DNA of 37,704 bases, from positions 1 to 37,704 of IMG/VR virus record IMGVR_UViG_3300042294_001905; one strand, given 5' to 3'. Origin of the DNA: a virus. How positions within the stretch are numbered: position 1 is the stretch's first letter; every line of letters starts with the position of its first letter. The notes under the pieces are model-generated. The model saw only the letters and a list, made by a program, of their open reading frames with translations, was not told where the DNA came from and searched no databases. Shown in pieces: positions 19,407 through 27,251 of the stretch. The position numbers were made by a program, and so were the translations under genes.

Positions 19407-19991
19407 ATGAACACGCAATGGTTCCGCGGTCGGATGGCCGACCGAAAAATCAGTCAGAGAGGACTCGCGAAGATGTTGGAACTCGACCCCGCCGCCGTGT
19501 CGCTGATGCTGCGCGGCAAACGACGGATGACGCCGCACGAGGCGCACCAGTTAAGCGTGATCCTGGGCACGCCGCTGAACGAGGTGATGCGCCACGCCGG
19601 CATCGACGTCGAGGAGGACGTGCGGCGTTGCCCGATTGCGGCGCACGTCAACGAGCGCGGCCAGGTCACGCTGATGCCTGCGGGCACGCACGACGACGTG
19701 ATGGGCCCGGCCGACGTGCCGGTGGGCACCTACGCCGTGCAGATGCGCTCGCACGCGTCCGTGACCGACGGCTGGTTGCTGTACGTCACGCCGGCGCAGA
19801 TGCCCGCAGCCAACAATGCTGACCAGCTGTGCCTGTGCGCGCTGCAGGACGGCCGGCAGCTGCTTGGGATCATCCGGCGCGGCTACCGGCGCAGCACGCA
19901 CAACCTGGTGCTGTGGCCGTCGATGGAGACGATTGACGACGCCTCGATCGTCTGGTCGTCGACGGTGCTCTGGGTCCGACCGTTGTACTGA
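19407..19991 (+). CDS. CI-like repressor with HTH and degenerate S24-type C domain
   Basis: Protein of 194 aa. An XRE-type HTH fills about residues 5-60: RKISQRGLAKMLELDPAAVS is followed by the recognition-helix region LMLRGKRRMTPHEAHQL. Residues 105-190 follow the order of a LexA/CI C-terminal domain: VPVGTYAVQMRSHASVTDG, WLLYVTP, then QDGRQLLGIIRRGYRRSTHNLVL. The usual catalytic Ser-Met and the Lys of the dyad are not evident (RSHAS and GIIRRG occupy those places). Self-cleavage may therefore be lost, so induction could depend on an antirepressor. It is divergent from the Cro-like gene and followed by a strong terminator, so it is transcribed alone. Confidence 0.78.
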   Translation: MNTQWFRGRMADRKISQRGLAKMLELDPAAVSLMLRGKRRMTPHEAHQLSVILGTPLNEVMRHAGIDVEEDVRRCPIAAHVNERGQVTLMPAGTHDDVMGPADVPVGTYAVQMRSHASVTDGWLLYVTPAQMPAANNADQLCLCALQDGRQLLGIIRRGYRRSTHNLVLWPSMETIDDASIVWSSTVLWVRPLY

Positions 19992-24223: not shown

Positions 24224-24839
24224 CGTGCAGCAGGTGCTGGAGGCGCTGGAAATCGGCTACGACTCTGCGCAGGCCGAGGCGGCGCAGTACCACGCCGCGA
24301 TGGCCGGATATAGGCCCGAGAGGCACGCCGCGATGGACGCGGATGTCGAGAAGATCGCCGCAGCCATCACCGCCCTCCGCGCCGCGCTGGAGCAGGAGGA
24401 GCAGCGACTTGTTCGTGTGCCTGACGGACTTGCGCAGTCAGACGCACAGTTCTGGTTGGACAAGCGTGGCGCGATCATCGACGCATGCAGGGTTCAGGGA
24501 TTCACCATCGTCACCACGGCCAACGGCGTGCATCTGATGCAACTGGGGAGGATTGAGGCGAAGACCGCCGCGCTGACGCAGCAGGAGCAGGAGCCGGTGG
24601 CGTGGGTTGATAGCGCAGAACTGAAACATCTGTCTGATGATTTTGAGCCTGTAATCAGCAAACTGGCGATTAGCGAATACGACATCCCCCTCTACACCAC
24701 CCCACCCCGCCGCGAGTGGCAGTCGTTGAGTGAGGAGGAGATTTTGCTGATATCGGTCGAGTGCGCTGCATCGCATCAGCAAGATGACGTTGCTTTCGCA
24801 CGCGCCGTTGAGGCCGCGCTAAAGGAGCGCAACGCATGA
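24216..24839 (+). CDS. Ea22-like mosaic accessory protein
   Basis: Protein of 207 aa with three parts. The first is a helical N terminus (MSDVQQVLEALEIGYDSAQA). The second is a middle segment ending QEQEPVAWVDSAELKHLSDD. The third is a C-terminal module DIPLYTTPPRREWQSLSEEE, finishing FARAVEAALKERNA. The 'EPVAW...PLYT.PP.REW..L...E' module is recurrent at the ends of phage Ea22-type proteins, where halves are exchanged between phages. The DNA becomes AT-richer in the last 200 bases, which agrees with module exchange. Function is unknown. Coupled to RuvC by ATGA. Confidence 0.65.
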   Translation: MSDVQQVLEALEIGYDSAQAEAAQYHAAMAGYRPERHAAMDADVEKIAAAITALRAALEQEEQRLVRVPDGLAQSDAQFWLDKRGAIIDACRVQGFTIVTTANGVHLMQLGRIEAKTAALTQQEQEPVAWVDSAELKHLSDDFEPVISKLAISEYDIPLYTTPPRREWQSLSEEEILLISVECAASHQQDDVAFARAVEAALKERNA

Positions 24840-25318
24840 GCTTCATCATCGGCATCGACCCCGGCGCCGGCGGCGCCGTGGCCATCCTTGAGCCCGACGG
24901 CAGCCTGGTCCAGGTCTTCGACATGCCCGCCGTGGAGGTGACGGTGGGCGGCAAGGCCAAGCGCCGCGTCAGCCCCGAGATGCTGGCCGCCGAGCTGCGC
25001 CTGTACAACGTTCACGGCACCACCGCGGTGGTCGAGCAGGTGGGCGCCATGCCCGGCCAGGGCGTCAGCAGCATGTTCGCCTTCGGCCAAGCCTATGGCA
25101 TGGTGCTGGGCGTGCTGGCGGGCCTGTACATCCCGGTGCGCACCGTCACCCCAGCCACCTGGAAGCGCGCCCTGAAGCTGAACACCGGCAAGGACGCCGC
25201 CCGCGCCGAGGCCGCCCGCCGCTGGCCCCAGCAGGCCGGGGAGTTCCGGCGCGCCCGCGACGACGGCCGCGCTGAGGCTGCGCTGCTGGCGGTGTGGGGG
25301 ATGAGGGAAAGTACCTAG
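24836..25318 (+). CDS. RuvC-like Holliday junction resolvase
   Basis: Protein of 160 aa with the RNase H-like resolvase pattern: D8 in FIIGIDPGAGG, E67 in TTAVVEQVGAMPGQGVSSM, and D142/D143 with E147 in RDDGRAEAALLAVW. Also the PVRTVTPATWKRAL segment typical of phage RuvC-like enzymes. It would resolve branched intermediates from recombination or packaging. Last gene of the long rightward operon before an 81-base gap with a likely promoter for the integration genes. Confidence 0.85.
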   Translation: MSFIIGIDPGAGGAVAILEPDGSLVQVFDMPAVEVTVGGKAKRRVSPEMLAAELRLYNVHGTTAVVEQVGAMPGQGVSSMFAFGQAYGMVLGVLAGLYIPVRTVTPATWKRALKLNTGKDAARAEAARRWPQQAGEFRRARDDGRAEAALLAVWGMREST

Positions 25319-25608: not shown

Positions 25609-25643
25609 GCTGCCGGTGGCAGCGGCCTGCCTCGCGGCAGGCC
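25609..25643 (+). promoter_or_regulatory. Tandem hairpins between the candidate excisionase and integrase
   Basis: GCTGCC-GGT-GGCAGC (25609-25623) is followed directly by GGCCTGCC-TCGC-GGCAGGCC (25624-25643), both perfect stems with no T tract. They could attenuate or stabilise the int mRNA. Int starts 41 bases further. Confidence 0.55.
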
Positions 25644-25684
25644 CGTGTCACCCCCAACCCGAACCTGAACGAAAGGAACCCACC

Positions 25685-26653
25685 ATGGCCATCAAGCTCC
25701 GCGGCGACACCTACTGGATCGACGTCCAGATCAACGGCGTGCGCATCCGGGAGTCGCTGAAGACGTCCGACAAGAAGGAGGCCGAGCGCCTGCACGACAC
25801 CCGGCGCGCCGAGCTCTGGGCCGGGCGCATGCTCAAGGCCAAGCCCAAGAAGACATTCCGCGAGGCCTGCGATCGCTGGATGCGCGAGAAGGCGCACAAG
25901 AAGTCGATCCAGGAAGACCGCGACAAGGCGGCCTACTTTCTGCCCAAGCTGGGCCACCGCCAGCTGTCCACCATCACCCGCGACGACATCGAGGCGCTGC
26001 TGCCAGAGTCGGTCAAGCCGGCCACCCGCAACCGCTACCGGGCCTTCATGCGCAGCGTGCTGCGCGCGGCCGAGCGCGAGTGGGACTGGCTGGACCGCGC
26101 GCCCGTGCTGCGCACCGAGGCCGAGCCCAAGCGCCGCGTCGCGTTTCTGACACGCGACCAGGCCGAGCTGCTGATCGAAAACCTACCTCACAAGTACCGG
26201 ATTCCTGTCCGTTTCGCTTTGCTCACCGGGTTGAGAAGATCGAACGTGTTCGAGCTGTCCTGGGAAAACGTCAACCTCGAGCGCGGCGTCGCGATCGTCC
26301 ACGCCGACGAGGCCAAGGCCGGCGAGCGCATCGTAGTGCCGCTCAACAGCCGGGCGCGCGAGCTGCTGTCCGCGATCCCGCCCGGGCCTGATGGCCAGCG
26401 CACCGGCCGCGTCTGGCCAGGCCTGACCCGCGTCTGGGCCAACACATGGAAAGCCGCCGCCAAGCGCGCCGGCGTGCCCTGGTGCCGCTTCCACGACCTG
26501 CGCCACACATGGGCCAGCTGGCATGCCCAGGCGGGCACGCCGCTGTCGGTGCTGCAGGAGCTGGGCGGCTGGCACTCCCCGCAGATGGTGCAGCGCTACG
26601 CTCACCTGTCGCCAGAGCATCTGGCAGCCGCCGCAGAAAGGGTCTCGCTGTGA
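25685..26653 (+). CDS. int: Tyrosine-family integrase
   Basis: Site-specific recombinase of 322 aa. An N-terminal arm-binding-like region (MAIKLRGDTYWIDVQINGVR) precedes a SAM-like core-binding domain (about 60-140). The catalytic domain shows R184 (TGLRRSN), K212 as a possible lysine, H270-x-x-R273 (FHDLRHTW), H297 in GGWHSPQM and the nucleophile Y305 in VQRYAHL. The start is set by the AAAGGAA site; the longer frame to 25616 overlaps the hairpins. It lies 314 bases from tRNA-His, the probable attachment site, and overlaps the 105-aa gene as GTGA. Confidence 0.9.
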   Translation: MAIKLRGDTYWIDVQINGVRIRESLKTSDKKEAERLHDTRRAELWAGRMLKAKPKKTFREACDRWMREKAHKKSIQEDRDKAAYFLPKLGHRQLSTITRDDIEALLPESVKPATRNRYRAFMRSVLRAAEREWDWLDRAPVLRTEAEPKRRVAFLTRDQAELLIENLPHKYRIPVRFALLTGLRRSNVFELSWENVNLERGVAIVHADEAKAGERIVVPLNSRARELLSAIPPGPDGQRTGRVWPGLTRVWANTWKAAAKRAGVPWCRFHDLRHTWASWHAQAGTPLSVLQELGGWHSPQMVQRYAHLSPEHLAAAAERVSL

Positions 26654-26967
26654 TTGATGCCAAGAAGGTGATCTCCGACGCCCAGGCCGAGGCGACGAAG
26701 CGCCGCGAGGCGCACGAGGACGCCATGGACCAGGCCGCAGTGCCGGGCTCGACCGTCTACGTCCTGCACGACGGCCGCCGCGGCTGGATGCACGGCGAGG
26801 CGGGCACGGTTGTCTGGGCCAACGACGAGTGGGCCGAGGTTCAGTTCAAGGACCGCTGCCTGCGCTTCAAGCTGCAGCGCCTGTCGCGCCAGCCTGACGG
26901 CCTGGACTGCATGCAGGCCCGCTGGGCGCTCAACCAGGCCGCCGCGCACACGCGCACCGAGCGCTGA
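26650..26967 (+). CDS. 105-aa protein ending at the tRNA gene
   Basis: Protein of 105 aa starting with GTG inside the integrase stop (GTGA), with AAAGGG upstream. A helical N terminus (IDAKKVISDAQAEATKRREA) is followed by a small beta domain (GSTVYVLHDGRRGW, GTVVWANDEWAEVQFKD) resembling a KOW/SH3-like barrel. The C terminus runs RWALNQAAAHTRTER. Its TGA (26965-26967) directly abuts the CCA end of tRNA-His, so the gene end would lie at the integration junction. Function is unknown. Confidence 0.65.
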   Translation: MIDAKKVISDAQAEATKRREAHEDAMDQAAVPGSTVYVLHDGRRGWMHGEAGTVVWANDEWAEVQFKDRCLRFKLQRLSRQPDGLDCMQARWALNQAAAHTRTER

Positions 26968-27044
26968 TGGGGTGGTCGATGGGGCTCGAACCCACGACCG
27001 CTGGAATCACAATCCAGAGCTCTACCAACTGAGCTACGACCACC
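26968..27044 (-). tRNA. tRNA-His (GTG anticodon), complete with CCA
   Basis: On the minus strand a full cloverleaf can be drawn. It has a GGTGGTC...GACCACC acceptor stem, D arm with AGCTCAGTTGGTAGAGC, and anticodon stem CTGGA/TCCAG around TTGTGAT with anticodon GTG. The T arm is GTGGG-TTCGAGC-CCCAT, and the discriminator region is followed by encoded CCA. It closely resembles bacterial tRNA-His genes. Because integrase and repeat-rich DNA flank it and lysis genes follow beyond it, this is most likely the phage attachment site carrying the whole host-like gene. Confidence 0.92.
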
Positions 27045-27251
27045 GCTGAAGCCGCCTCACCCGCCGAATGGCACGTTTACGGCACAAAAAAGATCATACA
27101 TCAGAAAACCTCAATAAAATCATGAGGTTATCGCAATGTATCACCAGAATCACAATCACAATACATTGAGATTCTCTCAGCGTAGCCACATCTCACCGAT
27201 GAGGTTTTGTGTTCCTGTGCCGGCACTCTGCGGCACAAAAATGGCACAGGC
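27045..27251. other. Probable attP region with integrase-type repeats
   Basis: 207 AT-rich bases between tRNA-His and the lysis genes. Visible: the direct repeat CGGCACAAAAA at 27080-27090 and 27231-27241; AAAACCTCA at 27105-27113 with TGAGGTT at 27123-27129 and TGAGGTTTT at 27200-27208; and the inverted repeat CAATGTAT (27134-27141)/ATACATTG (27161-27168). Between those arms is GAATCACAATC (27147-27157), identical to 27004-27014 in the tRNA anticodon arm. CCTGTGCC/GGCACAGG (27214-27250) forms a hairpin at the end of the lysis operon. Repeated short motifs on both sides suit integrase arm and core sites. Confidence 0.7.

Follow-up and report, generated by a model that had tools for sequence, protein, structure and literature searches.

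A complete tRNA-His gene beside the integrase of a phage probably infecting Burkholderiales, and its likely part in tRNA-dependent lysogeny

A complete tRNA-His gene lying directly beside an integrase gene raises the question of whether the tRNA is itself the phage attachment site or a separate gene with another part in integration. This question was evaluated for the window, the whole 37,704-nucleotide stretch analysed, a 37.7 kb IMG/VR virus record (IMGVR_UViG_3300042294_001905). The first-pass annotation had favoured the former. The reading reached here, held with high confidence, is that the window is an uninserted temperate phage, probably of Burkholderiales, using tRNA-dependent lysogeny.

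The tRNA-His gene and its neighbours

The only tRNA found in the window by ARAGORN was a tRNA-His(GTG) on the minus strand (26968-27043); with the tRNA-His identity base G-1 at 27044 and an encoded CCA (26968-26970, TGG on the plus strand), the complete gene, the proposed replacement of a host tRNA-His, covers 26968-27044. Rfam scored it as a tRNA at 67 bits, above the cut-off of 29. The neighbouring gene (25616-26653, plus strand) encodes a tyrosine integrase of 345 aa, matching PF00589 (E = 1.4e-26) and the integrase family phrog_1 (E = 6.8e-71). The presence of a complete tRNA-His with CCA next to the integrase was thereby confirmed, as was the observation that the stop codon of a 105-aa gene (TGA, 26965-26967) lies directly against the CCA. 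This small gene (26650-26967, plus strand) overlaps the integrase stop, had no Pfam or PHROG match and is missing from many relatives. The abutment is not special, since about 7-10 bp separate the integrase stop from the CCA in relatives without the small gene, and the distance from integrase to tRNA ranges from about 7 to 440 bp across relatives. A stretch of about 260-440 bp separates the two genes in some relatives (e.g., L009, L010, L018 and L030) and is missing in others, the small gene being the version found in the window. An endolysin gene (phage lysozyme, 27521-28378, minus strand; PF00959, E = 1.8e-33; phrog_7) lies beyond attP, and this phage DNA identifies the window as the uninserted form of the phage and not as a prophage end with host DNA. 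A weak match to a phage transcriptional repressor (19407-19991, plus strand; phrog_2328, E = 9e-5) is in keeping with a temperate phage. A frame at 24836-25318 on the plus strand gave a weak RuvC-like match (Pfam E = 2.5e-4), under the curated cut-off.

A full tRNA-His was found at the same place in the window and in 68 fetched viral loci, with 10 distinct sequences; these loci are related, several being slices of one contig, and are not independent. Such recurrence means that the gene is neither a chance occurrence nor an assembly artefact. The GTG anticodon, the G-1:C73 pair and the CCA are kept in the 10 distinct sequences. Four stem pairs vary among these, each change being matched on the other side of the stem, and non-standard pairs occupy 0 of 220 cells. 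A decaying relic would not be expected to show such stem covariation, which indicates that the phage tRNA-His is under selection. When whole records were searched (n = 38), exactly one tRNA was found in all 24 records of the full-tRNA class and none in the remaining 14; the isotype was always that of the target named by the core, with no further tRNA present.

Attachment cores of the window and its relatives

The anticodon loop occurs a second time, in a copy missed by the first-pass annotation, about 105 bp from the tRNA of the window (about 96-105 bp in relatives with a full tRNA and a minimal core). The probable attP core (27143-27157) reads ACCAGAATCACAATC and contains the 7-bp loop ATCACAA at 27149-27155, the integrase overlap being assumed to be 7 bp. 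Arm-type sites, read as sequence repeats, flank this short core. The putative P-arm repeats, GGCAC (27070) and GGCACAAA (27081), are 11 bp apart within 27070-27088, at -79/-68 from the core (-80/-69 in most relatives), and the putative P'-arm repeats, GGCAC (27222), GGCACAAA (27232) and GGCAC (27243), occupy 27222-27247, at +73/+83/+94 (about +82/+93 in relatives). In minimal-core relatives, pairs of GGCACA repeats with an 11-bp spacing stand at roughly -80/-69 and +82/+93 relative to the loop. In the canonical relatives (His, Cys, Asn and Ser) the P' repeats lie at +81/+92 to +82/+93 from the anticodon loop of the tRNA 3' half, so the arm spacing of the window aligns its second loop copy with their core; on the P side the position of the pair varies more (-122/-111 to -78/-67). 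The full tRNA has its loop 143 bp away from the core, beyond the arm repeats. Because the second loop copy is bracketed by repeats at kept distances, it is most likely the crossover core of attP, and the full tRNA would be a separate gene outside the arms. No tRNA 3' half was found at 27149, so the window does not have a canonical 3'-half attP. The piece that the core has in common with Burkholderiales tRNA-His genes of stem type CCRGA/TCYGG measures 11-15 bp. Minimal cores read CC[AG]G, resembling this host stem (CAGG in L037-L041 and L044); the anticodon stem of the phage tRNAs is CTGGA/TCCAG in 10 of 10 distinct sequences, unlike the cores. A pattern search for a tRNA 5' end followed by 80-110 bp and a short core returned 39 contig stretches, many in contigs already known.

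Relatives of the integrase were found in 57 viral loci at 61-99% identity, about 40 of which carry a full tRNA-His just downstream of the integrase on the opposite strand. Relatives lacking the full tRNA have, at the corresponding place, a tRNA 3' half ending in the anticodon loop, a canonical core derived from tRNA-Asn (L031 and L032), tRNA-Cys (L033-L036, L042 and L043), tRNA-Ser (L050) or tRNA-His (L041, L044 and L051). Four loci, L037-L040, have both an intact tRNA-His 3' half as core and a full tRNA beside the integrase. The 3' half is thus found in L037-L041, L044 and L051, and is gone from the core in the clade of the window. Distant integrase relatives in bacterial genomes (43-50%) mostly adjoin intact tRNA genes whose 3' end points toward the integrase, the ordinary geometry. 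Beside the integrase of L047 (5951-6150), an apparent 5' half of a tRNA-Ser, from anticodon loop to 5' end and not a 3' half, was observed, preceded by a terminator-like hairpin. L045 and L046 showed no tRNA half and no obvious core after the integrase stop; lysis-type genes seem to start at once, and their attP may be elsewhere. Many other viral contigs (L171-L216) have an apparent canonical tRNA-His 3' half ending in the anticodon loop, which seems a much-used integration target.

It was considered whether the full tRNA gene could serve as the attP core, with a crossover that swaps phage and host tRNA-His halves and always leaves a functional tRNA. The loop ATCACAA of the full tRNA is identical to that of the host, and identity with host tRNA-His is long, reaching 76/77 in relatives. 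The position of the full tRNA outside the arm repeats, the canonical arm spacing of the second core, the co-occurrence of a full tRNA with a canonical 3'-half core in L037-L040 and the match of the minimal cores (CC[AG]G), not of the phage tRNAs (CTGGA/TCCAG in all 10), to host CCRGA/TCYGG make this highly improbable, and a crossover within the full tRNA was rejected on arm spacing. The attachment site proposed in the first-pass annotation is consequently probably not the tRNA gene. Its suggestion that the crossover could lie in the anticodon arm was right in that the anticodon loop is probably used, but in a separate 11-15 bp copy about 105 bp away.

It is likewise very unlikely that the tRNA serves lytic growth or counters host tRNA-cutting defences and adjoins attP accidentally or as a remnant of host-junction capture. 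Such lytic-growth and anti-defence roles are proposed for phage tRNAs in passages of PMC10865867, and full tRNAs beside an integrase are typical of inserted prophages, a possible source. Against this, the isotype always equals the target of the core, other tRNAs are missing, outside L037-L040 the full tRNA goes together with a lost 3' half, and the stem covariation argues against a decaying relic. The link between the tRNA and integration, with tRNA-His as the probable target, was upheld. The case named beforehand as contradicting an attachment-site role, retention of the tRNA as a gene internal to the phage, is close to the outcome, but the reason for keeping it appears tied to integration.

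Simulated insertion and the predicted host

In tRNA-dependent lysogeny as proposed for the window, the integrase would recombine the loop ATCACAA of the phage core (27149-27155) with the same loop in the host tRNA-His. With the 3' half lost from the core, the host gene should be split and not rebuilt on integration, leaving a complete tRNA at neither end, and the complete tRNA-His between integrase and attP would replace it. Recombination was simulated in silico between attP and 10 Burkholderiales tRNA-His genes within ATCACAA, the phage's own tRNA being set aside. For 10 minimal-core phages, including the window, a tRNA was called at neither junction (an ARAGORN call being a prediction of function only), whereas a tRNA-His was obtained at the integrase-side junction for all 3'-half-core phages tested, including L037 and L039. 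With the core placed as above, no functional tRNA would thus be rebuilt at attL or attR, contrary to the earlier expectation that one is kept whichever segment is exchanged.

The phage tRNAs match tRNA-His of Burkholderiales genomes at up to 76/77 positions (in relatives), and the core-like stem type CCRGA/TCYGG occurs in 221 of 399 genomes; together these place the host probably in the order Burkholderiales. A single tRNA-His match was found in about 198 of 300 Burkholderiales genomes (counted by eye, the host order itself being inferred), and in a lysogen of a single-gene host the phage tRNA would be the sole tRNA-His left. The host and attB are predictions, and it is from the sequences that we infer actual attB use, essentiality, expression and complementation.

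Promoter scans upstream of the phage tRNA gave no significant sigma-70-like promoter. The tRNA is placed so that a host promoter could drive its transcription after insertion: it is co-oriented with the host 5' half, which would land upstream with the host promoter, and host transcription could pass through a leader of about 140 nt into the phage tRNA. A more tentative proposal, doubtful as a whole, is that the phage tRNA is promoterless and switched on only once insertion puts the promoter and 5' half of the host tRNA-His in front of it, that its stem (CTGGA) is kept different from CCRGA so that the integrase spares the replacement copy, and that L037-L040 record arrival of the tRNA before decay of the 3' half. 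It is tempting to regard the CTGGA/TCCAG stem as shielding the phage tRNA against the integrase.

Searches of viral contigs and of genomes yielded neither a lysogen nor an attL/attR junction. The integrase search of genome contigs gave only two relatives, at 42-43%, and nothing above about 50% identity was found in sets of 399 and 268 genomes; one further family, represented by only six genomes, yielded no lysogen. Integrase-side junction patterns (one with the TCCAG host stem) returned from viral contigs nothing, or only an unrelated tRNA array (L062), and the 3'-half junction pattern mainly recovered intact tRNA-His genes or canonical sites belonging to other phages.

Known systems and the order of events

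Documented chiefly in phages of Mycobacterium and related genera, tRNA-dependent lysogeny is defined in Mycobacterium and Gordonia phages (Fionnbharth, LeBron, Gaia and BrutonGaster) in passages of a 2024 mBio paper (PMC10865867), where cores of 8-17 bp, lack of tRNA reconstruction and a cognate phage tRNA are shown experimentally for the mycobacteriophages. The window has in common with these phages, as described there, a tyrosine integrase, flanking arm sites, the lack of a rebuilt tRNA, a cognate tRNA and canonical 3'-half close relatives, and its core of 11-15 bp compares with 8-17 bp in the Mycobacterium and Gordonia phages; Gaia likewise has its tRNA downstream of int. The phages differ, as do the predicted host order and the target, tRNA-His here. 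The Fionnbharth tRNA is described there as having a strong promoter of its own and overlapping gene 37, whereas the tRNA of the window lies between integrase and attP, in host-remnant orientation and with no clear promoter. Relatives that combine a full tRNA with an intact 3' half, found here, are not described in the passages of PMC10865867 considered. A proteobacterial example comes from Sinorhizobium meliloti, where a prophage disables a host tRNA-Leu (UAG) and brings a replacement of its own (PMC11476347); the isotype here is His, and only uninserted forms were found, in contrast to the inserted prophages described there. The canonical relatives (L041, L044 and L051; L031-L036, L042, L043 and L050) share the integrase family, arm spacing and anticodon-loop core of the window, but lack a full tRNA and rebuild the host gene with the 3' half that they have. 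The window fits every feature of tRNA-dependent lysogeny that can be read from sequence.

Two questions raised in the passages of PMC10865867 are how frequent the strategy is beyond actinobacterial phages and whether arrival of the tRNA preceded or followed loss of the long core. A 94-bp stretch that holds the tRNA in L037-L040 is missing from L041 and L044; the L041 integrase is nearly identical to those of L037-L040, and that of L044 is slightly further away (branch 0.089). Gain or loss of the tRNA was recent in the L037-L041/L044 group. The L037 tRNA matches those of other phages at 75/77 positions and the nearest host tRNA compared at 72/77, which suggests exchange between phages. The coexistence of a full tRNA with a seemingly working 3' half agrees with an order in which the tRNA arrives before the 3' half decays; the tree (support 84-88) leaves the polarity of gain versus loss in L037-L041 unsettled. 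A whole tRNA beside an integrase, then, need not be the attachment site. The relatives of the window may keep an in-between stage in the evolution of tRNA-dependent lysogeny, and since one integrase family includes canonical phages for four tRNAs, phages with a minimal core and a tRNA-His, and phages with both together, the order of events is testable.
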